Positions 10,959 to 44,720 of a stretch of 64,000 nucleotides of DNA are shown one piece after another. The first letter of the stretch is position 1; each line of letters opens with the position of its first letter. A model generated the notes under the pieces. It was not told the origin of the DNA. It worked only from the letters and a program-made list of their open reading frames with translations, and searched no databases. The position numbers were made by a program, and so were the translations under genes. Source of the stretch: Myxococcales bacterium. GTDB lineage: Bacteria > Myxococcota_A > Polyangia > Polyangiales > Polyangiaceae. Location: contig JANXLV010000064.1 of NCBI GenBank assembly GCA_025355005.1, positions 1 to 64,000 of the forward strand, in the 5' to 3' direction.

Positions 10959-12322
10959 CGGAACCCCACGTCTTGCATCGCGCTCGAGCGACCGCGTCTC
11001 AGGGATGCCTCGGCCGCAGTGAGCGGCGTGGACGTGGAGCCGCCTTTGGTGCTGCCGCGTGGGCGATCCTCGGGCGCGCACGTCGGGTCCGTCGCGAGGC
11101 CGTCCTCGATGCATGCGTCGAACGGCACCGCCGCATCCAGCACCCACTCACGAACTCCTCCGGCGAGATCGAGCACGCCGTCACGCGAGACGTCGGCGAT
11201 GCCATTGCACGAGCCCGGCACCGCGTAGCTGCCGATCCCCTTCTTGGGATTGCAGCCGAAGCTGCCGCTGGCGAGCGCAGCAGCGCAACACGTCGGCTCC
11301 TGGTTTCCCCACGGATAGCGATAGCCGCGGCCACGACCACGCGCCGCGTGCTCCCACTGCGCCGCCGTGGGCAACGAGCCGCCCCGCGCCTTGCATGCCG
11401 CCAGCGCGGTCTCGTACGAGACACATCGGACCGCCTGCTTCTCGGCGCTCCCCTTGGTGGTCGTATAGTTGCATTCTACATCAATTGATGAGAGCACTGG
11501 CGGCGCGACGCCAGGGAGCTTTCCTGCGGTGAAGAGCGAGCGGAGCTGCGGGACGGTCATCTCCGTCTCGTCCAGGTAGAACGGGGAGATCAAGACGGCG
11601 CGGGGCGGGTTCGGGATGATGTCGGACACGAGATCGACGATGTGGAGCGCAGGATCGCCGATGTCGCTGACCCCCCCCGGAATGCATAGCGTTCCACTCG
11701 GGCCGGCGGCGCTGCACGCTACTTCTCTTGCTCCGGACCACGAGGCGACGGTTGGTTCTGGGTCGTCGAGCGTGGTGGCGGGGACGGCGCGGCGCGCGGC
11801 GTCGACGCAGGTCGTGGCGCTCGTCAGGTCGACTGGGGTGCCGAAGCAGTCGCCGTGAAGCACGACGTCGATGCGGTCGAACCCAACGATGGTCTTCTGC
11901 GCGAGGCGCGTGAGCGATACGCCGGGCTCGATCGAGGCCGCGCCGTCTTGACCGAGGTGCTCCCACGCGGCGCGGAATCCAGTCACGCGGATGAGCGGGG
12001 AGGAGCCGGTGGGCGCCTCGACACCGAACGAAACCGGAAACGAGGATGAGCCCGACACCACGAAATCGCGGGTCGCAGTAGGGCTACCGTCGCCACCGAA
12101 GACCTCGACGCGCACCCGATCGATCGATGCGGCGGCGGACAGCAGCGGATCGCCGTCGAGCTGGGAGGGAAGCACGACATCCGAGCGCACGGTCACGAGG
12201 AGCTGCGGGCGTGCTGGTGCATCACTGCACGACGCCATGACCAGTGTCGCCGCCGCGAGCGTGACCAGCGTCGCCGCGAGCGTGACCGGTGCGCGCGGGC
12301 TCAGTGCGTCTGCGCGACCCAT
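10946..12322 (-). CDS. SUMF1/FGE-like domain lipoprotein
   Basis: 458 residues. The lipobox is at ATLVMASC, the N-terminal half is a beta-rich region of unknown family, and the C-terminal half is SUMF1-like: FYLDETEMTVPQL, SLPTAAQWEHAARG, YRYPWGNQEP, LAGGVREWVLD and ending VGFRC. It is paralogous to the gene downstream, with which it overlaps by 13 bases, and its ATG overlaps the stop of the TPR/PEGA gene upstream by 22 bases. I chose the ATG at 12322 because the signal peptide follows; an upstream in-frame start at 12424 would add an Arg-rich extension that lies inside the PEGA gene. Confidence 0.88.
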   Translation of the reverse strand: MGRADALSPRAPVTLAATLVTLAAATLVMASCSDAPARPQLLVTVRSDVVLPSQLDGDPLLSAAASIDRVRVEVFGGDGSPTATRDFVVSGSSSFPVSFGVEAPTGSSPLIRVTGFRAAWEHLGQDGAASIEPGVSLTRLAQKTIVGFDRIDVVLHGDCFGTPVDLTSATTCVDAARRAVPATTLDDPEPTVASWSGAREVACSAAGPSGTLCIPGGVSDIGDPALHIVDLVSDIIPNPPRAVLISPFYLDETEMTVPQLRSLFTAGKLPGVAPPVLSSIDVECNYTTTKGSAEKQAVRCVSYETALAACKARGGSLPTAAQWEHAARGRGRGYRYPWGNQEPTCCAAALASGSFGCNPKKGIGSYAVPGSCNGIADVSRDGVLDLAGGVREWVLDAAVPFDACIEDGLATDPTCAPEDRPRGSTKGGSTSTPLTAAEASLRRGRSSAMQDVGFRCAF

Positions 12323-13290
12323 CCGGACGAGCCCCCATTGTAGGGCGGCGGCGGCCGCGTGACCGCGTAGACCGTGAGCGCGCTGCCAAGAACGACCGCG
12401 CCGACGCCCGCCCAGAACCACCACTGGCGCGTGAGGACCAGCTGCTCCTTCACCATCGGCGCCTGGATGTCCGAGCGCCCGCCAGGGCCGAGCGTAACGG
12501 TGGAGGAGTAGGTCGTGTAGCCGGCGCTGCGAACGTCGATCGAATACGTGCCGGGAGGTCTCTTCACGGTGACGGGCACGACACCAACGTCGAGCCCCTC
12601 GATCCGCACGACGGCATTCCCGCGCGAGGACTCCACGTGGAGCGTCGCGTCGAGCGCGCTGAGCGAGAGGTGGAGGTCTGCGTGTTGGCCGACAGGATAC
12701 GTCTCGCGCGAAGCCTGCGGCGCAAAGCCTTGTTTCTGGATCACGATGTCACGCTGACCGGGGTCGACCGCGGTCTCGAACGACGTCGGAAGGTCCGGCG
12801 ACGGATCGGCCGCGGCGGAGATACCTGCAATATACAACTTACTGCGACCGGTCGGGTCGACCGCGAGCGGCTTGCCGTCCACGGTGACGGTCGCGCCGGC
12901 GGGCTCGATCGTGATCGTGAGGTAGACGAGGCGCGTCTCGATGTCGCGAATGAACCCGTTCATCTCGTCCGCGAGCGACGGCGCGAGCTGCGCGTGGTTG
13001 TTCTCCGCGTCCAGCGCGAGTGACCCGTAGAACGCGACGCGCGCACGCGTGAGATGACCAAGGCGCAGCTCCGCGACGCCGATGTTGTAGAGGCTCAGCG
13101 CGTGCGGCTTGATCGCATGCGCGCGCTCGAACCATCCGAGCGCGTCGGCCCATTGCTGTGCGGCGACCGCGTCGACGCCCTTCTGGAATGCCTCGCCGGC
13201 TTCACTGCCTTCCGCGCGCACGGCGGGCGCGAAGAGCGCGAGGACGAGAAAAGAAAGAATGGCGATCGCGGTCGCTGCTCTGCGCTTCAT
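12301..13290 (-). CDS. Exported TPR and PEGA-domain protein
   Basis: 329 residues. A signal peptide (1-26, ending AVRAEG) is followed by TPR-like repeats (30-105: AFQKGVDAVAAQQWADALGWFERA), two PEGA-type beta modules (about 124-210 and 214-278; IEPAGATVTVDGK and RPPGTYSIDVRSAGY), and one membrane helix near the C-terminus (290-311) ahead of a short Pro/Gly tail. PEGA modules are surface-layer-like, non-enzymatic domains. This gene leads an operon with two SUMF1 lipoproteins, so the three may form a cell-envelope complex. The TonB receptor at 40246-43188 starts with the same TPR-PEGA arrangement. Confidence 0.87.
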   Translation of the reverse strand: MKRRAATAIAILSFLVLALFAPAVRAEGSEAGEAFQKGVDAVAAQQWADALGWFERAHAIKPHALSLYNIGVAELRLGHLTRARVAFYGSLALDAENNHAQLAPSLADEMNGFIRDIETRLVYLTITIEPAGATVTVDGKPLAVDPTGRSKLYIAGISAAADPSPDLPTSFETAVDPGQRDIVIQKQGFAPQASRETYPVGQHADLHLSLSALDATLHVESSRGNAVVRIEGLDVGVVPVTVKRPPGTYSIDVRSAGYTTYSSTVTLGPGGRSDIQAPMVKEQLVLTRQWWFWAGVGAVVLGSALTVYAVTRPPPPYNGGSSGWVAQTH

Positions 13291-34520: not shown

Positions 34521-35309
34521 TCAGGGAACGTTCGGCCCACCTGGTGTTGGTGTGGTGGTGAACTTGAAGTCGGCGGTGGCGTTGTTCGCGTCCGCGCCGT
34601 TTGGCAGCCGTGACAGCGAGCCGGCGGCGCTATTGGAGTCGACCGCTGCCGTGGCCGTTCCCTCCACGAAGTTGCGAGGCGTCATGACACCGGTGACGTC
34701 CGCTGCCGTGACAGCGCCGCCGTAAGAGAGCGCGTCGAGCAGGTTCCCCGTGGCCTTGTCGAGCAAGCCCACAGCGGCAGTGCCGTTTCGCAGCGCGTTG
34801 GTCGAGGTCGGCAAGGCAATCCGAGCAACGCCCGCATCGGGGCCCGACACGTTGGGGCTCGCGACGAGCAGGTACTTGCCCGGAGCGAGCGGGCCCTTCA
34901 GATCCACGCGTCCGTACTCGGAGGTGGTGGAGACGAGCACCAGCGCCACGTTGCTGAGGTCCAGCGTCAACGCGGTCGGGTTATAAATCTCGACGAATTC
35001 CGCGGCGTCCGTACCGACCTGATCGTAGTCCACCTCGTTGATCACGAGGCCGACCGAGGTGCCGCCTTCGAGGAGCGTCACGGCGCCGTCGACAACCGTC
35101 TCACCCGGTCCGCCGGGCCCCACGACCAGCCCCGCGTCGCCCTGCCCGTAGGTGGAAACCGGGTCGATCGAGCCAACATCCGGTCGGGTGGAGCCCCCGT
35201 CGTCCGCGTCGCCCGTGGTCTCGGAGCCGCCAGCGCACCCGCCAAAACCCGCAAGGGTCATGAGCAGCGCCAGACCGAGGGCCCCCGCGTTTTCCCGAAT
35301 CCGTCTCAT
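34521..35309 (-). CDS. Lamin-tail-domain lipoprotein
   Basis: 262 residues: lipobox LAGFGGC, Gly/Asp spacer, then a lamin tail domain (LTD; VGLVINEVDYDQVGTDAAEF, VEIYNPTALTLDLSNVALV, YLLVASPNV, LLDALSYGG). Such bacterial LTDs occur on secreted proteins and are thought to be binding modules. Convergent with the phosphatase and only 52 bases from the divergent metzincin start. Confidence 0.87.
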   Translation of the reverse strand: MRRIRENAGALGLALLMTLAGFGGCAGGSETTGDADDGGSTRPDVGSIDPVSTYGQGDAGLVVGPGGPGETVVDGAVTLLEGGTSVGLVINEVDYDQVGTDAAEFVEIYNPTALTLDLSNVALVLVSTTSEYGRVDLKGPLAPGKYLLVASPNVSGPDAGVARIALPTSTNALRNGTAAVGLLDKATGNLLDALSYGGAVTAADVTGVMTPRNFVEGTATAAVDSNSAAGSLSRLPNGADANNATADFKFTTTPTPGGPNVP

Positions 35310-35361
35310 CAGCAGGCCGAGCTTAGCTCGATGCGCGGCCGCGTGCTACAGCCGGGCGCCG

Positions 35362-38300
35362 ATGCGTCATCTCCTTCGCCTCCTTGTAGCGTTGTTCGTC
35401 CTTGGCCTCGCGATCGCCCCCTCGGGTTGCTCGGAGGAGCGAGACCCCATCAACCGCGTGCAGTCTGCAGCCTTGCCGAAGACCTTCTTCGTGGGCGAGA
35501 AGCTGGCTGATCCGAGCGACGATCCCGAGTTCTACATGCACACGACCGTGGTCGACGTGGCCGCTGGTGCGGACTCCGAAGGGCTCTTCACCAGCTCCGA
35601 CGCGCAGCCAACCGTACGCGTGAAATGGGAGATCACGGAGAAGTCGTTGCTCGCGCGGCTCACCTACGAGCGCATCACCGACACCGATCACACGGGGCTC
35701 CGCGCGACCCCCAACGGCCAGGTCGTGGCCGCGTTCGACATCACCGGACACTTCGACATTCGCCGTGAGTACAACAGCGTCACCGGCGAGGAGTCGAACG
35801 TCATCCTCGAGAACACGACGGACCGCGCCTGGTACGACCGCTCCTTCTTCCGCGTCGACTGGTCGAAGAACCTCATCACCACGGCCTACGAGCTCGACAC
35901 GGTCTCCGCTCTCGGGATCGAAGGCGCCGTCGCCTTCGAGGCGCTCACCTACTACGTGGACGACCCGAAGAGCCCCGATCACCCGGTGGTCGACCTCGCG
36001 AACGGCTACCTCGACACCACGATCAAGGTCTTCGCGAAGCCGCAGATGATTCACGATCCTGACTGGGGCGACGTGCCGGCTTGCTACCTCACGGGGAACG
36101 CCCCGCTGGCGAACTGCAACCCGAGCGAGGTGGTTCTCCGTCAGGCCTTCATGAAGGTCGTCGATCACGACTTCGAGGCCCTCGACTACGACGGCAACCG
36201 CATGGATCTGTTCGGATGGTTCTCTAACGATCGCTTTGGCTACGATCGGCACTACGGCATCGTCGACGACAAGTGGCACCGCTTCGCGTCGAAGTGGAAC
36301 GTGTTCGAGAAGTCGCACGCGAGCCCCGTCGTCGCATGCGCGTCACCCAGCTCCACGCCGGTCGGCAAGGACCCGCACCGCGACGAGAACGCGGACGGCA
36401 CGGAGGACGAGTGCGCAAGCGTCGGCCGCGGCTCGCGCTGCGACGCGTTCCGTGGAGAATGCACGCTTCCCCTGCGCGACCGCAAGGTGAAGACCACGGT
36501 CTGGTACGTGAACCAGGGCTTCGCGGAGGACCTCTTCGAAGGCACGGCGAAGATGCTCGACGGATGGAGCGAAGCCACGCGCGTCGCGATCCAGGCCGGG
36601 CGGCTCGCCGAGTGCCGCAAGACGAAGGGCGCAAGCTGCAACGCCGAGATGGGCTGGCCCGCTCGCTGGGCAGACGACTTCTCGCCGCCGGTCGGCTCCG
36701 GCTCGGCTGCGGAGGTCGGACGCGTCTTCGTGCTCTGCCACAACCCCGTCGACCCCACGAAGGACGACCCCGCGTGCGGTGCGGCAGCGGACAAGGATGG
36801 CGTGCCGATCGTCCGCCGCCTCGGTGACATTCGATACAACTTCATCAACCTGGTCGCGTCGCCGCAGTTCGAGAGCCCCTGGGGCATCATGGTCGACGCC
36901 GAGGATCCGCTCACCGGCGAGAAGATCGCGGGCAGCGTCAACCAGTGGTCGGCCGTGCTCGATCGCGCGGCGGCGACGCTCGTCGATCTCCTGGCCCTCC
37001 TCAATGGAGAGATGCTGCCGACCGACTACATCGAAGGTCAGAACGTGTCCGCGTGGGTCGCGGCAAACCGTCCCGGCGGTAAGGGCGAGGCGTTCGTCGC
37101 CATGGATGCGAACGAGACGGCGTCGCGCGCGGCTGCGTTCGATCCCCAGGTGATCGCCCCGTACCTTGGCGGGCTCTCGGGCGCGCAGAAGGTCTCGCAC
37201 GCACCGCCCGCACAGCGTCGCAAGCAACGCTTGCAGTCGCTGCTGGACGCGAATCGCCTGGGCCCCGGCAACGGCGTCCTCGCTTCGCGGCTCACCCAGC
37301 TCAAGAGCACGTCGATCGAAGCAGCGATGGTCTCGCCGGAAATGGCGCAGGCTGCGGGCTTCGATCCGAGCATGCCGGTCACGAAGGACGCGATCAAGCG
37401 CGGCACTCCGTTCGGCAAGATGAACCCTGTCCTCCGTCGCGAGCGCGACCGCTCGAAGCGAATGGCGCAGGCCGCACGGCACTCCTGCAAGCTGGACTCA
37501 CCCGAGCCGGACAACCTGCTTGGCCTCGCGAAGTACGCGGCGCGCCTCTTCCCCAAGCCGGATCCCAAGAATCCGACGGCGGTCGCCACGCACAAGGATG
37601 CAGTCTACAACTGGGCGCGCCACGAGTACTCCGCTTCGGTCTACGCGCACGAGATGGGGCACTCGATGGGGCTCCGTCACAACTTCGCGGCCTCGTTCGA
37701 CTCGCTGAACTACGCCCCCCAGTACTGGCAGCTGCGCACGAACAACGGCACGGTCACCGCCGCGTGCGCTGACGGCAACACCAACGGCGCCGCCTGCGTG
37801 GGTCCACGCTGGAAGGATCCCCTCACCGTCGACGAGACAGACGGCAACATCCACAAGTACGGCACCACCAGCGTCATGGACTATCCGGGCGACCAGAACC
37901 ACGACATGGACCTCCAGGGCAAATACGATCGCGCCGCGATCCGCTTTGGCTATGGCGGCGTCGTCGATGTCTGGGATGGCGGTGGCGTCAGCGTGACCGG
38001 CAGCGGCGATGGGCGAAAGAAGGCGTACGAGCTCAGCGCCTTCGCGCAGGGAACGGGCCTCTTCGGGATCGAAGACCTCCCCACGGTCGATCCCGCGGTC
38101 GGACCGGCCCACCTCCACTACAGCGCATACCAGACGGAGTTCGGCTTGCTCGGGGACTGCACGGCGTCATCCGCGCCGGACGCGATCCTCGGCAAGAAGT
38201 GCAACGAGCATGCGATGGACGTCGTGGGCTACGACGTCATGCGCGATTTCGCCGCCGATCCCGCCTGGGCGAGCTACCTGTTCGGGATCGCGCCACGCTC

Positions 38301-39714
38301 GGTTGACGACAAGGGTCGCGTGCGACGCGGCTACATGTTCATGAGCGACGAGTACGCCGATTCCGGCAACGTCCCTGCCTTCACCTACGACGCAGGCGCG
38401 GACGCGTACGAGCAGATTCGCTTCCTCGAGGCCGCCTACGAGAACCGCTACATCCTGGACGCCTTCCGTCACAACCGCGTGAACTTCAACTCCGAGGCCG
38501 TGGTCGGGCGCCTGCAAGCGCACTACCTGGACACGATCCAGCTCATCTCGAAGACGTTCGCCTTCGGAATGGTGCTCTCGGCCGACGATCCGAGCGTCCC
38601 CAACAAGGAGCTCCTGGACGACGGCAACTGGGGTGCGCTCAGCATGGGCAGCACGATCGCGTTCGACATGTTCGCGCGCATCCTCACGCGCCCCGAGCCC
38701 GGGTACTACTGCAACGCAAACGCGGACAGCTGCGTCGGCGGGCAACCTTACGGGCTCGATCTCGATCTCTACGTGGCCGACTCCGCGCCGCTCCCTGCGG
38801 CCTCTCCTTACGACTTCCACTTGCCGCTCGGCCCAGGTCGCTACGTCCACAACGACTTCGACTACGGCAAGGGTTACTGGTGGGCCGACTACCAGAAGCA
38901 AGTCGGCGCCTATTACGAGAAGACGTGGGCGACCTTCTACCTCGCAGAGGCGTTCGACTCCTTCATCTCGAATTCGAAGGAAGACTTCGTGGACGGCCGC
39001 TACAAGAACGTGAACTTCGCCACGGTGTATCCCGCGCAGACGCGGCGCCTGTTCGCGTCGCTCTTCACCGGCGACACGGCGCAGTTCGGGCCGTGGGTCG
39101 CTGGCTCGAAGGCGCCGGGCACGAATCCAGCGGATGGCGTCATCACCTACCCCGCGTGGCACGCGCTCACCGACGTGGGCCTTGGCACGCGCCCCGCGAA
39201 CGCGAAGCTCCTGGACCCCAACTGGGGCTTCAACGAGCAGCTCTACGCCATGGTCTGGTCCACGATGTACTTCCCGACGAACTGGTCACAGAGCTTCGTT
39301 GACGAGTCGCGGATCACGACGCTCGCAGCCGACCAGGTCAACTGGCCAGTCACCGAGACCTTCACGTTCTACGATCCCCAGAGCGGCAAGACGTACCGCG
39401 CGCACTCGACAGGGACAGAGAGTATCTTCGGCGTCGATCACGAGAAGGGCATCGGCGCACGCATGCTCGAGTGGGCGACCACGCTGCTCATCCAGACGTA
39501 CATCGTCGAGACCGACGCGATGGGCTTCATCAAGTACAACGCCGACGGCACCGTGAAGCTACAGCTCGACGTCAACGGTCTACCGCAGAAGGACCCCATG
39601 GCGCCGGGCGCAGACGCGCAGCTCCGGAAGTACATGGACCAGGTGGACATCTTCCGGCAGCTCACCGCCGAGTTCTCCCGCTCGCTCGGAGACGCTGACC
39701 TCCCCCAACCTTGA
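35362..39714 (+). CDS. Large metzincin-type zinc metalloprotease lipoprotein
   Basis: 1450 residues. Signal and lipobox at FVLGLAIAPSGC. The zinc site is HEMGHSMGLRH (H763, E764, H767, H773), the extended metzincin HExxHxxGxxH, with a Met-turn TSVMDYPG (Met839) downstream. The 700-residue N-terminal region is beta-rich; the 600-residue C-terminal region has no assigned domain here. This size and build match the myxobacterial zinc-dependent metalloprotease group (DUF5117/DUF4953-like). Its likely job is to digest external protein at the outer surface. The ATG at 35362 is where the signal peptide starts, although the frame is open back to 35152. Confidence 0.9.
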   Translation: MRHLLRLLVALFVLGLAIAPSGCSEERDPINRVQSAALPKTFFVGEKLADPSDDPEFYMHTTVVDVAAGADSEGLFTSSDAQPTVRVKWEITEKSLLARLTYERITDTDHTGLRATPNGQVVAAFDITGHFDIRREYNSVTGEESNVILENTTDRAWYDRSFFRVDWSKNLITTAYELDTVSALGIEGAVAFEALTYYVDDPKSPDHPVVDLANGYLDTTIKVFAKPQMIHDPDWGDVPACYLTGNAPLANCNPSEVVLRQAFMKVVDHDFEALDYDGNRMDLFGWFSNDRFGYDRHYGIVDDKWHRFASKWNVFEKSHASPVVACASPSSTPVGKDPHRDENADGTEDECASVGRGSRCDAFRGECTLPLRDRKVKTTVWYVNQGFAEDLFEGTAKMLDGWSEATRVAIQAGRLAECRKTKGASCNAEMGWPARWADDFSPPVGSGSAAEVGRVFVLCHNPVDPTKDDPACGAAADKDGVPIVRRLGDIRYNFINLVASPQFESPWGIMVDAEDPLTGEKIAGSVNQWSAVLDRAAATLVDLLALLNGEMLPTDYIEGQNVSAWVAANRPGGKGEAFVAMDANETASRAAAFDPQVIAPYLGGLSGAQKVSHAPPAQRRKQRLQSLLDANRLGPGNGVLASRLTQLKSTSIEAAMVSPEMAQAAGFDPSMPVTKDAIKRGTPFGKMNPVLRRERDRSKRMAQAARHSCKLDSPEPDNLLGLAKYAARLFPKPDPKNPTAVATHKDAVYNWARHEYSASVYAHEMGHSMGLRHNFAASFDSLNYAPQYWQLRTNNGTVTAACADGNTNGAACVGPRWKDPLTVDETDGNIHKYGTTSVMDYPGDQNHDMDLQGKYDRAAIRFGYGGVVDVWDGGGVSVTGSGDGRKKAYELSAFAQGTGLFGIEDLPTVDPAVGPAHLHYSAYQTEFGLLGDCTASSAPDAILGKKCNEHAMDVVGYDVMRDFAADPAWASYLFGIAPRSVDDKGRVRRGYMFMSDEYADSGNVPAFTYDAGADAYEQIRFLEAAYENRYILDAFRHNRVNFNSEAVVGRLQAHYLDTIQLISKTFAFGMVLSADDPSVPNKELLDDGNWGALSMGSTIAFDMFARILTRPEPGYYCNANADSCVGGQPYGLDLDLYVADSAPLPAASPYDFHLPLGPGRYVHNDFDYGKGYWWADYQKQVGAYYEKTWATFYLAEAFDSFISNSKEDFVDGRYKNVNFATVYPAQTRRLFASLFTGDTAQFGPWVAGSKAPGTNPADGVITYPAWHALTDVGLGTRPANAKLLDPNWGFNEQLYAMVWSTMYFPTNWSQSFVDESRITTLAADQVNWPVTETFTFYDPQSGKTYRAHSTGTESIFGVDHEKGIGARMLEWATTLLIQTYIVETDAMGFIKYNADGTVKLQLDVNGLPQKDPMAPGADAQLRKYMDQVDIFRQLTAEFSRSLGDADLPQP

Positions 39715-39721
39715 GCGCGTC

Positions 39722-40249
39722 TCAGTCACCGGCCTCCAAGTCGTCAGCATCGCCGTCGGGTCCGTCGTCACCCGCGTCGGCGGTGGTGCTCGCGTCCGCC
39801 GTACCGTCGCTCGCGTCGACCGCTGTGCCGTCGGCAAGGTTGCCGGCATCGTCCGCGCTGCCCGCGTCGCCGCCGTCGTAGGTGCAGGTCGGCTCGTTGC
39901 CGGTGCTCATGCACCACTTGCACGTCCTGTAGGCGGCGAGCGCCGCAACGCACGTGGGGTCATCGGCGGCGCCAAGGGCGACCGTGGTCGCGTAGGGCGG
40001 GCACACCGTGGAGACGTAGGTGGTGCCACTACCGACCAGACACACGGGATCGCAGCCCGAGCTCCCCGTGCCTCCGGTGACGATGTCGAGCGCGGTGTAG
40101 TCGTCGAGGCAGTCGTTCGCTTGCTCGTAGAGCTGCGCGCTGTAGATGTGCGTCGGCGTGTCGTCGCAACCAGGCGCGACCCAGAGCGTGAGCGTGAGCG
40201 GCGCGAGCACGGCGATGAGCGCGAATGCAGCCTTCGGAAGACGCATCAT
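39722..40249 (-). CDS. Cys-rich lipoprotein coupled to the TonB receptor
   Basis: 175 residues. Signal ending LTLWVAPGC, then about ten cysteines (NDCLDDY, SSGCDPVCLVG, TCKWCMSTGNEPTCTYDGG), ending in an Asp/Ala-rich tail of about 45 residues. The ATG overlaps the receptor stop by four bases (ATGA), with GGAGG four bases upstream. It probably acts as a surface or periplasmic partner of the receptor, by analogy with lipoprotein-TonB pairs; this is inference. Confidence 0.8.
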   Translation of the reverse strand: MMRLPKAAFALIAVLAPLTLTLWVAPGCDDTPTHIYSAQLYEQANDCLDDYTALDIVTGGTGSSGCDPVCLVGSGTTYVSTVCPPYATTVALGAADDPTCVAALAAYRTCKWCMSTGNEPTCTYDGGDAGSADDAGNLADGTAVDASDGTADASTTADAGDDGPDGDADDLEAGD

Positions 40250-43188
40250 GGGCCTCCGAACGTCGCGCCCACCGAGGCGAAGAACGTTCGCCCCGGCTGC
40301 AGCATCGTCGTCTGGCGGAACTCGGTGCTCACGGGCGCGACCTGCCGCCAGTCGGCGATGTTGTAGAAGCCGACCGCATAGCGCACGCCCCACTTCGGCT
40401 CGACGCCCGAGAGGATCAGGTCCCAGATGACCGATGCGTCGGTCTTGTTCTGCGGGTCGGGGCTCGTTGCCTGGTCATTGCGATCAAAGCGCGCGCCTTC
40501 GAGCGTGACGCGCGTCATGGCGGTGAGCGCACGGCCGAGCACGGGGACCGCGCCCTTCACCGAGACGAGCCACGGCGGCACGTTGGGGACCTCGCGGAGA
40601 TCAGCGCTACGTCTGTATGCGAGGACATCGGAGACCTGATCGGACTTCATGTACTGCGAGCGCTGGAGCGAGCCGGCCGCCGAGAGCATCCAGCCCGATT
40701 TCCATTCGCGGCGCGCCTCGAGCTCGGTGCCGACACTCGTGACCGGCGTCTGCGTGTTCGTGTATTGCGAGATCTGCTGTACCGGATCGATGTCGCGCAG
40801 CACGATGAGGTTACGAACGTAGTTGCCATAGACGGAGAGGATGCCGGTCGTGGTCGTGGAGAATCGGTGTGAGTACTCGACCTCGGCCGAGTAGACGTCC
40901 TCCGGACGGAGGTCTGGCGCAGGGGGCTGTCCGTATCCAGAGTAGTAGAGCTCGTAGATGCTCGGCGCGCGGAACGCCTTGCCGACCAGCACCTTCACGT
41001 TGTCGCGCTCGTAGGGCTTCAGGATCAACGCGATGCGCGGGTTGAGCGACGAGCCGAACGTCGAATAGGTGTCGAAGCGCGCGCCCGCGGAGATCTTCGC
41101 GCGGTCCGACGGAGAGACGTCGGCGAGGAGATACGCGGCGCCGACGACGAACGGGCGCCGATCGTCGAGGACGGTCCCTTGCTGCTCGTCCGCGACCGTC
41201 TGGTGCACGGCGAAGTGGTCCTGCACCTCGCCGCCGCCAGTGAGCCGAAGTCGCGACCACGGCGAGTAGATGAAGCGTTGCTCCGCGCCGACCCATGCGC
41301 CGTCGTACCCATCTACCTCGATGCCGGACGGGGGGAGGTGAGCGAAGGTGCCGCGGTAGCCGTAGTAGTTGGCGTGCGCGCGTGAGAGCGACTGCAATGA
41401 GTCGGTGATCTTCGGCTCGTATCGCAGCTCCAACATCCCGCGCGTGTCGGTCTGGCGCGTGCGCTTGTCGCCGACGATCGTCACGAACTCGCCGCTCGGC
41501 AGGTGCTTCTGCTGGGAATTGAGCGACCACTGCGCCGTGAGCGCCTTCCACCAGACCTGTCCGGTCCACGTGCCCACGTTGAGCCCGTCCACGCCGCGCG
41601 CATTGCCGGCGACCGATGCTGGGCCGTCGGACACGTGTTCGGGGAAGAAGAAGTCGCGCCCTGCGCCCTTGCCGCCGGAGAAGGACACCCACGCGCCGGA
41701 GTCGGGCCCGAAGTGCCGCGTGACGCGCATGCGCCCGCGCATCATTCCAGCCTCGGGGGTGGAGGCGCCGACCTCCCAACCGTCGGGCGCGTCGCGTCCG
41801 CGAGGGACGAGATTGATGACGCCCGAGAACGCGTTGGTGCCGTACAGCACGGACCCCGGGCCGCGCACGACCTCGATGTGGTCGATGTCTTCGATGTCGG
41901 TCCTGAGGTCGTAGCTGACATACGACGAGCCGATCCAGTTGTCGTTCATCGGCTGTCCGTCGAGCAGGACGAGCACGCGGTTGCCATAGCTGCCCGGATA
42001 GCCGAGCCCGCGAAAGCCAAGCGATGGGTAGGAGCGATCGTCGGAGACATAGACGCCGCGCGTACCGCGTAGCGCCTCGGCCACGGTGGGATAGCTCATC
42101 GCGCGGAGCTCGGCGCTCGGCAAGACGGAGACGGAGCCGGGCGCGTCCTCGACGGCCTCGGAGGCGCGCGACGCAGCCTGGACCTGCTCCGCCGGCTCGA
42201 GGCTCGCCTCGATCTTCACCTGTTTGTCCGTCTCGACGACGACGACCTGGTCGACGGGACGAAACCCGCGCAGGCTGACCCGCACGCGATGCGTCCCGAT
42301 CGGCGTGGTGACGACGGCGGGAGCGAAGCCTTGCGCGCGGCCATCGACCTCGATGAGCGCGCTTGGCTCGTCGGCCTCGACGACCACGGCGCCCGTCCTC
42401 GCAGCGAACGCCACGAGCTGCGGCGGATGCACCGGGACCGTCTCCTTTGCGGTGACAGCGACGACGATCTGCGTGCTCTGGAATCCAGCGCGAGAGACGT
42501 ACATCGTGTGTGTACCCGGTGTGGCCGGGAGATCGCACGGGACGACGCAGCCGGGAGGACCGCCCTCGCTGTCGAGGCGTACCTCGGCGCCTGCCGTGTC
42601 TCCAGTCACGCGGATGGTTCCGAGAATGCGTACGAGCCTGAGCGAGACCACGGACTCCCGGCCGAGCGTCGCGTCGACGACGTCCGAGCTCACGTCCTCG
42701 TATCCGTCGAGCTCGGCGATCACCCTGTATTTCCCAGGCGGAAGGCCAAGTCGCTGCGGCGCGTTGCCGCGCTCGCCGAGGTCCTTGCGATCGAGATAGA
42801 GCCTCGCGCCCGGAGGAACCGTGACGACCTTCAGCACGCCGACCCTCGGAGCGATGCGCGCGATGGCCTCCTCGACGCGCGCGCGCGTGGGCGCGTCCTT
42901 CTCTCCGTCGAGAGCGCGTACGTAGTAGCGATACGCCTCGGGATAGCGCTTCAGTTGCTCGTACGTGCGCGCGATGTTGTAGACGACGTTGCGGTTGGGC
43001 GCGAGCCGGTTCGACGCGAGGAAGTGCTCGAGCGCCCCCACGAAATCGTGAGCCTTGTAGCGCTCTGCGCCGAGCTGGAACTGGAGGTCAACTTCGTCGG
43101 CCACGTCGTCCGCAAGAGCAGAGGGCGAGAGCATGACGAGCGCCGCAAACGCCGCAAACATCGTGAAGGAGCGGCGTTGGCGGCGCAT
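40246..43188 (-). CDS. TonB-dependent receptor with N-terminal TPR and PEGA domains
   Basis: 980 residues. Signal peptide (1-26), TPR-like helices (30-110), three PEGA-like beta modules (about 118-185, 188-255, 265-330), then a plug domain starting VEDAPGSVSVLPSAEL (347-362) with IEVVRGPGSVLYGTNAFSGV (437-456), and an outer-membrane barrel to the end. Typical receptors carry only a signal and perhaps a short N-terminal extension. Its start and the stop of the kinase gene share one base (TGATG), so translation is coupled. The ligand is unknown. Putting TPR-PEGA on the periplasmic end suggests that it docks to other envelope proteins. Confidence 0.9.
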   Translation of the reverse strand: MRRQRRSFTMFAAFAALVMLSPSALADDVADEVDLQFQLGAERYKAHDFVGALEHFLASNRLAPNRNVVYNIARTYEQLKRYPEAYRYYVRALDGEKDAPTRARVEEAIARIAPRVGVLKVVTVPPGARLYLDRKDLGERGNAPQRLGLPPGKYRVIAELDGYEDVSSDVVDATLGRESVVSLRLVRILGTIRVTGDTAGAEVRLDSEGGPPGCVVPCDLPATPGTHTMYVSRAGFQSTQIVVAVTAKETVPVHPPQLVAFAARTGAVVVEADEPSALIEVDGRAQGFAPAVVTTPIGTHRVRVSLRGFRPVDQVVVVETDKQVKIEASLEPAEQVQAASRASEAVEDAPGSVSVLPSAELRAMSYPTVAEALRGTRGVYVSDDRSYPSLGFRGLGYPGSYGNRVLVLLDGQPMNDNWIGSSYVSYDLRTDIEDIDHIEVVRGPGSVLYGTNAFSGVINLVPRGRDAPDGWEVGASTPEAGMMRGRMRVTRHFGPDSGAWVSFSGGKGAGRDFFFPEHVSDGPASVAGNARGVDGLNVGTWTGQVWWKALTAQWSLNSQQKHLPSGEFVTIVGDKRTRQTDTRGMLELRYEPKITDSLQSLSRAHANYYGYRGTFAHLPPSGIEVDGYDGAWVGAEQRFIYSPWSRLRLTGGGEVQDHFAVHQTVADEQQGTVLDDRRPFVVGAAYLLADVSPSDRAKISAGARFDTYSTFGSSLNPRIALILKPYERDNVKVLVGKAFRAPSIYELYYSGYGQPPAPDLRPEDVYSAEVEYSHRFSTTTTGILSVYGNYVRNLIVLRDIDPVQQISQYTNTQTPVTSVGTELEARREWKSGWMLSAAGSLQRSQYMKSDQVSDVLAYRRSADLREVPNVPPWLVSVKGAVPVLGRALTAMTRVTLEGARFDRNDQATSPDPQNKTDASVIWDLILSGVEPKWGVRYAVGFYNIADWRQVAPVSTEFRQTTMLQPGRTFFASVGATFGGP

Positions 43189-44720
43189 CAGTGCGTGAGC
43201 TTGATGTCGAGAGGTACGGAGCCTGCCGGCTGCGCCGGATGCAGGGGTCGATGCGTCGGTGCGCTCGCCGATCGGGAGGGCGCGGAGGATGACGAGGACG
43301 CTGTCGCGGCATTCTCCGCGCTGCTGCCAATGCTGGCAGGAGAGCTGGCAGGAGTGCTGGCAGGAGACGCGACAGACGTGGACGCGGAGGGTTGCGCTGG
43401 AGGAGTGGCTGTCGGCACGGAGGGGGAGGCGGAGGCGGACGGCTGGTCGTGCCGATCTCCGAAGCCCCCGAACACAAGAACGCCGATGCAGGCGACCGCG
43501 ACGATCGCCGCACCCGCGACGATGATCTTCGCGAGCGGCTTCGGGCGCTCCTCCACGCGCTCCACGTTCTCCGCAAGCAAGGGCGTATTCGCGGTGCCTC
43601 CGAGGCTCAGATTTTGCGCCACCGCGCCCACCGCGCCCGATGCGCCCGATGCGACGGGCGGGGTCGGTTGGGGAGCCGCGCCGATCAGACCGCCGGAAGA
43701 CGGATGCTGCGCGAACGGGTTCGATCTCACGCTCGGTGGTGCCACCGCTACGAACGTCGGCTGGGTACCAAGCGACTGCGCCTCGCCCGGGCCGCTCTGC
43801 GCGAGCTCCAACGAAGGCCTGGACGCGACCGCACCGGGCACCACGCCCGCCAGTGCCACGAGCGCCTCCGCCATCTGCTGTGCGTTCTGGAAGCGATCGG
43901 CCGGCTCGCGGGCGCACGCGCGAAAGAACCAGGCATCAAGCCCAGCGGGCAGCGCCGGCTGCAGCTTGACGAGGCTCGGCAGCGTACGCGTGCAGATCTG
44001 CAGGATGAGATCGCCGAACGACGCGCCGGCGAAGGGCTGAACGCACGTGAGCGCCGTGTAGACGACGAGGCCCAGAGAGTAGAGATCGGAGCGACCGTCG
44101 ATCCCGCGGAGTCCGCGTGCCTGCTCGGGGCTCATGTAGAGCGGCGTGCCGATCATCGCGCCCGTGCGGGTCGTGGACTGCGTCTCGTCGGCCATGGAGA
44201 ACTTGGCGATGCCGAAATCGAGGACCTTCACGACGACGCCGTCGTCGTCCTCGGACTCGGACATGAAGATGTTGTCCGGCTTGATGTCGCGATGGATGAT
44301 TCCGAGCGTGTGCGCGCGGCCGAGCGCCCGCGCTACGTGCGTGACGATCTGGACGACGCCAGCAAGGGGCATCGCGCCGGCGCGCTCGAGCCGCGCCTGG
44401 AGGGACTCACCGCGCAGGAGCTCCATGGCGATGAACGGCGTGCCGTCCTCGAGCTCTCCGTTGTCGAAGATCTGCACGACGTGGCGCGACTGCAGCTTCG
44501 CGCCCGCCTTCGCCTCCGTGTCGAAGCGTTTTCGGATCTCCGCGTGACGCGCAAGATCGCTGGTGATGAGCTTCACCGCGACCTGTTTTCCGAGGCCAAG
44601 ATGGGTGGCAGACCAGACCGTGCCCATGCCGCCCTGACCGATCATGGCCTCCAGCTTGTACTTGCCCGCAAGCACGGCGCCAGCCGCGACCACGGGGGAC
44701 GTGGGCACCTCACTCCCCAT
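43188..44720 (-). CDS. Hanks-type Ser/Thr protein kinase, coupled to the TonB receptor
   Basis: 510 residues. Kinase domain with glycine loop GQGGMG (28-33), Lys50, HRDIKPDN (D145), DFG (168-170) and SPE (197-199). After a Pro/Ala/Ser linker lies one membrane helix (about 399-419) and an 85-residue low-complexity Ser/Ala/Pro tail outside the membrane. First gene of an operon of three whose members overlap by one and four bases. A kinase that is translated together with an outer-membrane receptor would suit a surface-sensing pathway. Confidence 0.93.
   Translation of the reverse strand: MGSEVPTSPVVAAGAVLAGKYKLEAMIGQGGMGTVWSATHLGLGKQVAVKLITSDLARHAEIRKRFDTEAKAGAKLQSRHVVQIFDNGELEDGTPFIAMELLRGESLQARLERAGAMPLAGVVQIVTHVARALGRAHTLGIIHRDIKPDNIFMSESEDDDGVVVKVLDFGIAKFSMADETQSTTRTGAMIGTPLYMSPEQARGLRGIDGRSDLYSLGLVVYTALTCVQPFAGASFGDLILQICTRTLPSLVKLQPALPAGLDAWFFRACAREPADRFQNAQQMAEALVALAGVVPGAVASRPSLELAQSGPGEAQSLGTQPTFVAVAPPSVRSNPFAQHPSSGGLIGAAPQPTPPVASGASGAVGAVAQNLSLGGTANTPLLAENVERVEERPKPLAKIIVAGAAIVAVACIGVLVFGGFGDRHDQPSASASPSVPTATPPAQPSASTSVASPASTPASSPASIGSSAENAATASSSSSAPSRSASAPTHRPLHPAQPAGSVPLDIKLTH
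43331..43366 (-). repeat. Three 12-base tandem repeats in the kinase tail
   Basis: The unit (t/a)gctggcaggag occurs three times without gaps and encodes part of the Ser/Pro/Ala-rich extracytoplasmic tail of the kinase. The unit length keeps the frame, so tail length could vary. Confidence 0.8.

Follow-up and report, generated by a model that had tools for sequence, protein, structure and literature searches.

A transmembrane Ser/Thr kinase with a conserved C-terminal tag pairs with a TPR-PEGA-TonB receptor in Myxococcota and may form a trans-envelope sensor

Introduction

TonB-dependent transducers such as FecA, FpvA and PupB act with FecR-type anti-sigma factors and ECF sigma factors. Two published accounts describe transducers of this type as outer-membrane receptors whose N-terminal periplasmic domain contacts an inner-membrane partner and signals inward to anti-sigma factors (PMC11637429, PMC7186176). 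A myxobacterial genome encodes 100 or more Ser/Thr kinases, and the 8.68 Mb genome analysed here at least 150. The inputs of most of these kinases are, to our knowledge, unknown.

Here we analyse a kinase–receptor locus in a 64,000-nucleotide stretch of this genome (the window). The locus resembles the FecA class, as those accounts present it, in combining a receptor that has a periplasmic N-terminal domain with a proposed inner-membrane partner, but differs from it in that no STN domain, FecR or sigma partner was seen and a TPR–PEGA region is instead associated with a Ser/Thr kinase bearing a C-terminal tag. No description of such a kinase–TonB receptor pair was found in excerpts of the open-licence literature (including PMC3986340 and PMC3222651), an absence that counts as weak evidence. 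From the comparison of protein ends, we consider the C-terminal tag on receptor-coupled kinases to be a new finding.

Results

Organization of the locus

An ORF check of the window recovered the kinase, receptor and lipoprotein-like genes together with both junctional overlaps (Table 1), confirming the coupled operon that an earlier, sequence-only reading of this DNA had described. The receptor layout given there, a TPR and three PEGA modules ahead of the plug, also held, as Pfam identified PEGA in three stretches, the plug and the barrel, with the TPR scoring below threshold. A 1520-residue ORF with a Met-zincin/reprolysin-like signature (35152-39714) lies convergent to the operon, and a separate TPR-PEGA protein devoid of plug and barrel is encoded at 12301-13290 on the minus strand.

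Table 1. Features of the kinase–receptor locus, in window coordinates.
Feature	Position	Strand	Evidence
Hanks-type Ser/Thr kinase gene, 510 aa	43188..44720	-	Pfam Pkinase 1.9e-37
Predicted cytoplasmic kinase domain, about residues 21-291, HRD and DFG	43848..44660	-	Pfam; high-confidence predicted fold
Kinase transmembrane helix, residues 396-417	43470..43535	-	hydropathy; predicted helix
Kinase tail, residues 418-510, Pro/Ala/Ser-rich, disordered, predicted periplasmic	43191..43469	-	pLDDT about 41-55 (ten-residue blocks)
Kinase C-terminal tag LDIKLTH-COOH; in relatives [DE]I[RK]xxR	43191..43211	-	comparison of kinase C-termini
Kinase stop/receptor start overlap TGATG	43186..43190	-	sequence
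TPR-PEGA-TonB receptor gene, 980 aa	40246..43188	-	ORF; Pfam; relatives in 77/377 genomes of the phylum
Receptor signal peptide, residues 1-26 (...SPSALA/DD)	43111..43188	-	by eye; predicted helix 2-19, then low-confidence linker
Receptor TPR module, residues 28-115, five helices, signature SNRLxPNRNVxFNIAR	42844..43107	-	conservation; model; covariation with kinase tag
Three PEGA modules of receptor, residues 116-335	42184..42843	-	Pfam; model
TonB-box-like segment QVQAASR (family EVTAASR)	42166..42186	-	conserved V336, A338, S340, R341; role by analogy
Receptor plug domain	41809..42165	-	Pfam Plug 1e-20
Receptor beta-barrel	40249..41808	-	Pfam TonB barrel 7.8e-26; structural matches to BtuB, Cir
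Receptor stop/lipoprotein start overlap ATGA	40246..40249	-	sequence
Accessory lipoprotein-like gene, 175 aa, unconserved	39722..40249	-	ORF; homologue search

The window kinase contains a canonical PknB-like domain with the HRD and DFG motifs. Since lysines and arginines lie on the kinase side of the transmembrane helix, the 93 residues that follow the helix, which are predicted to be disordered, are assigned to the periplasm. The kinase had previously been read as cytoplasmic, which agrees with the predicted location of its catalytic domain but overlooks the helix and the predicted periplasmic tail. Tails measure 76-197 residues from helix to C-terminus in the adjacent pairs of our first locus set, a range that leaves out L104, L106 and L113, where the kinases are not adjacent; about 90 fully extended residues would span an estimated 30 nm, roughly, which should suffice to cross a periplasm. 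A PEGA match of their own was detected in 17 of 35 coupled kinases, and none of the 35 matched PASTA. The Stk1 model scored under its cut-off.

The AlphaFold2 model of the receptor (mean pLDDT 91.6) comprises five helices at residues 28-115, beta modules to about residue 330, the plug and the barrel. Its best matches among solved structures are BtuB (1nqg, TMt 0.85), Cir (9nn6, TMt 0.79) and FepA-type receptors, and from residue 335 onwards we therefore regard the protein as a typical TonB-dependent transporter. Among 34 relatives, Pfam detected the plug in all and the barrel in 33, and no STN domain was found in these (E up to 0.001) or in the window receptor (E up to 0.1). The EVTAASR segment is conserved at residues 335-341, ahead of the plug, and may, by analogy, correspond to a TonB box.

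Because the TPR and PEGA modules are located behind a signal peptide, they are predicted to be periplasmic. ATP is not available in this compartment, which makes it unlikely that the receptor arm becomes phosphorylated; the suggestion in the sequence-only reading of N-terminal receptor phosphorylation by the kinase is thus unsupported. That reading would have been undermined by receptor N-terminal domains lying beyond the reach of the kinase with nothing to join them: the domains are indeed predicted to be periplasmic, but the transmembrane helix, disordered tail and conserved tag together constitute a predicted link.

The kinase–receptor pair is conserved across Myxococcota

Searching 377 Myxococcota genomes at E up to 1e-60 gave relatives of the receptor in 77. 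We assembled 161 receptor loci, consisting of 80 from these phylum matches, 80 named loci from a contig scan and the window, which reduced to 133 non-redundant loci at 95% identity. The scan yielded no match with a single receptor protein as query and succeeded with an alignment, which gave 575 confirmed stretches; the best 80 of them were used. These best 80 come from Labilithrix, Sorangium, Polyangium, Myxococcus, Corallococcus, Archangium and many metagenome bins, and their titles denote Myxococcota, 'delta/proteobacterium' bins or evident mislabels. Two contigs titled as Klebsiella pneumoniae MAGs (L263, L284) carry a myxobacterial kinase–receptor pair and are evidently mislabelled bins. 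No receptor relative was found in viral contigs.

Adjacent FecR and ECF sigma genes accompany receptors of the FecA class, whereas the upstream neighbour here is a transmembrane kinase, directly adjacent on the same strand (within about 300 nt), at 99 of the 133 non-redundant receptors. The intervening gap has a median of 9 nt, is at most 30 nt in 66 of the 99 pairs and reaches a maximum of 301 nt. The remaining receptors lie at contig ends (8, of which 2 still show a tagged tail), have a kinase farther off (5) or have no kinase in the stretch (21). Given the kinase density of the window's genome, we estimate that a kinase would directly precede about 1-2% of genes by chance; the pairing exceeds this expectation. 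Nine plug-domain receptors were found in that genome: a kinase precedes each of the two that carry this type of TPR, and the other seven show no TPR and no kinase in the stretches taken (at L390 the contig ends upstream). Gene pairing and domain layout are thus established at the level of sequence, and the survey of kinase–TonB neighbours proposed in the sequence-only reading reveals a deeply conserved pair, contradicting the possibility, raised there, of an arrangement peculiar to one strain. At L236, L039 and L042, two tandem kinases precede a single receptor, and both L236 kinases end in the tag pattern described below.

The lipoprotein had been counted as part of the unit. A convincing homologue was found at only one (L098) of the 80 other receptor loci searched, and we rejected the gene as a conserved third component; judged by this distribution, it is accessory or incidental to the kinase–receptor unit. 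No neighbour convincingly hinting at a ligand was conserved among 116 loci, the largest neighbour cluster occurring at 27, with an example that looks antisense, and the next largest at 8. Pfam searches of six nearby ORFs in the window detected no FecR-type anti-sigma factor and no ECF sigma factor.

The same six ORFs include no TonB or ExbB protein, which bears on a reading in which control runs from inside to outside: a kinase held by its tail would phosphorylate cytoplasmic parts of TonB–ExbB–ExbD, or other transport proteins, and thereby tune uptake. Such control, also raised in the sequence-only reading, would fit the same docking anatomy and the canonical PknB-like kinase domain, and we judge it very unlikely.

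A conserved tag at the C-terminus of coupled kinases

All 99 coupled kinases terminate in a tag of the form [DE]-[IL]-[RK]-x-x-R-COOH, 78 matching a strict pattern ([IL][RK]..R-end) and 21 a relaxed one ([ILMFV]...[RH]-end), both patterns having been formulated after inspecting the kinase ends. In the first locus set, coupled kinases were initially detected using the kinase domain alone as query, with the tail excluded. Across 88 pairs, 87 kinases close with Arg, 87 have Ile or Leu at -5, and 67 carry Asp or Glu at -6. The window kinase, which ends in DIKLTH, belongs to the relaxed class only, with a final His versus the Arg found in 87 of the 88 pairs.

The tag also occurs on kinases that are not linked to the receptor gene. 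In six genomes of the Myxococcus group (Myxococcus, Corallococcus and Archangium), the receptor has no kinase neighbour. When an Archangiaceae-type coupled kinase was compared with these genomes, its best relative, encoded elsewhere, ended in GIKTGR in 6 of 6, compared with 0 strict and 1 relaxed match among 12 other complete-ended kinases from the same genomes. L291 and L281 represent an intermediate state, with the GIKTGR kinase 1.0 and 1.65 kb, respectively, from the receptor. We inspected the five best kinases (30 in total) in each of six further genomes having a receptor without an adjacent kinase and identified an unlinked tagged kinase in four, clearly in G061, G234 and G159 and in relaxed form (DINMNR) in G086; the candidate in G310 is doubtful and none of the five best kinases of G320 carries the tag. 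G234 and G159 each yielded two receptors, along with one coupled and one unlinked tagged kinase.

In ten genomes devoid of this receptor, none of 30 kinases (the three best of each) bears the strict tag and one matches the relaxed pattern. The strict tag is likewise missing from 60 kinases with complete C-termini sampled from the at least 150 of the window's genome, partly chosen for TPR or PEGA neighbours; four of them are relaxed matches, one being the window kinase itself. Sequence comparison thus shows a tag that is conserved, persists after loss of linkage and is absent from the kinases sampled in receptor-less genomes.

These results weigh on an alternative account, in which the tag only tethers the kinase, either where receptors are located or to the outer membrane, or in which kinase and receptor merely have a promoter in common and the kinase senses something else through its own tail, often with PEGA. 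The PEGA matches within coupled kinases could represent such a separate sensor. The TPR is retained where no kinase adjoins the receptor, being intact in all nine such receptors examined from the first set; we rejected the notion that these receptors lose it, their TPR scores overlapping those of coupled receptors, and the TPR may therefore have another use. Mere co-expression, however, predicts neither a tag on every coupled kinase nor its persistence on unlinked ones, and we regard tethering or co-expression as an unlikely explanation.

The tag covaries with the receptor TPR

For 88 non-redundant pairs, we computed the APC-corrected mutual information that relates the seven C-terminal residues of the kinase to 917 positions of the receptor. 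The TPR module, which accounts for about 10% of positions, holds 6 of the top 8 tag–receptor pairs (0.8 expected), and entropy-matched control columns from the kinase domain place at most 5 there, with 0 of 300 draws reaching 6. Seven of the top 20 pairs fall in the TPR, a number reached by 1 of 300 controls, and 9 of the top 50, reached by 10 of 300, a modest enrichment. An acidic residue at -6 is accompanied by receptor Tyr44 in 67 of 67 pairs, and all 14 receptors lacking Tyr44 are paired with a non-acidic -6. We take receptor residues 44, 67, 74 and 101 to be ligand-facing helix positions of TPRs, from a by-eye mapping onto the repeat.

Phylogenetic correction weakens this covariation. In 13 phylogenetically independent contrasts, the association between Tyr44 and an acidic -6 is favoured by 6, opposed by 0 and unchanged in 7; receptor positions 129, 212 and 776, outside the TPR, outscore Tyr44 and three more tie with it. 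The links of -4 with residues 101, 56 and 67 are weak, with few contrasts. Taken together, conservation and covariation suggest that the kinase tag likely docks in the receptor TPR.

The weakening of the signal would also agree with covariation that reflects shared ancestry, the tag binding another envelope partner, such as peptidoglycan, the Ton complex or one of the many other PEGA and TPR proteins encoded in the genome. We find this hard to credit, as the strict tag does not occur among the kinases sampled in receptor-less genomes, and a different receptor family is paired with a different tag.

A second receptor family pairs with a different tag

This second family is represented in the window's genome by L195 (G000:C30:8500-16500), where a kinase ending in GFKETPY precedes a receptor composed of a TPR, a Pro/Thr linker, a plug and a barrel. 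Seven similar loci were found in other genomes. Among 12 kinase loci inspected, 8 have a TPR-plug receptor downstream, and at all 8 the kinase closes with G[YF][KR] and a further two to four residues (GFKETPY, GYREW twice, GYKAEPY, GYKASPY twice, GFKGAY and GYKSSPY), and the 4 kinases with no downstream TPR-plug receptor have other endings. At L398 (G027:C433), one kinase is followed by two tandem TPR-plug receptors.

A kinase followed by a TPR gene with no receptor recurs in the window's genome (L133, L185-L190, L192, L196, L198, L223 and L224), with varied tails that include PLDYRGN, DIDFR, DMYGPRK, TPY and NPY. We therefore rejected a single tag common to all myxobacterial kinase–TPR pairs, as these other pairs have different ends.

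Discussion

Our analysis suggests that the kinase and the receptor probably form a trans-envelope sensor in which docking of the kinase tag in the receptor TPR connects a transporter of the outer membrane with a kinase domain in the cytoplasm. The receptor, a TonB-dependent transporter, would occupy the outer membrane, its N-terminal TPR-PEGA arm hanging in the periplasm, and the kinase would be anchored in the inner membrane, its catalytic domain facing the cytoplasm. The disordered, proline-rich kinase tail would cross the periplasm and present its last six or seven residues to the receptor TPR groove; ligand binding or TonB-driven transport would alter docking, for instance through clustering or release of the kinase, and altered docking would switch kinase activity. 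The compartments, the disorder of the tail and the TPR fold invoked here are predicted. Outside-in signalling by a co-produced kinase and transporter, as put forward in the sequence-only reading, thereby gains strong comparative support from a pair conserved across Myxococcota, the signalling itself being what we infer.

The two receptor families raise the possibility, which we advance tentatively, that outer-membrane transporters are wired one-to-one to transmembrane Ser/Thr kinases, each kinase bearing at its C-terminus an address tag for a periplasmic TPR to read. The tags would be specific to each family, [DE]I[RK]xxR for TPR-PEGA-TonB receptors and G[YF][KR]xxPY, GYREW and the like for TPR-linker-TonB receptors; other kinase–TPR pairs might use further addresses of the same code, and the whole would amount to a further kind of TonB-receptor signalling in Myxococcota. 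Were such a code true, the last seven residues of a kinase, together with its partner gene, would reveal its input, what myxobacterial kinases sense would become directly testable, and kinases would join the known outputs of TonB receptors.

The proposed partners each have counterparts in known systems. Like the PASTA kinases PknB and StkP, the coupled kinases feature a PknB-like domain, one transmembrane helix and a C-terminal part outside the membrane; unlike them, they have no PASTA domain and instead possess a disordered tail, PEGA in 17 of 35 cases, a terminal tag and a proposed outer-membrane partner. The receptor module recalls the TPRs of Hop, CHIP and PP5, which bind the EEVD end of Hsp70/Hsp90, in that a short TPR is predicted to hold the extreme C-terminus of its partner. 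It differs from these in its predicted periplasmic location, in comprising only two repeats and a capping helix, and in the different tag that it would recognize, with docking proposed from sequence.
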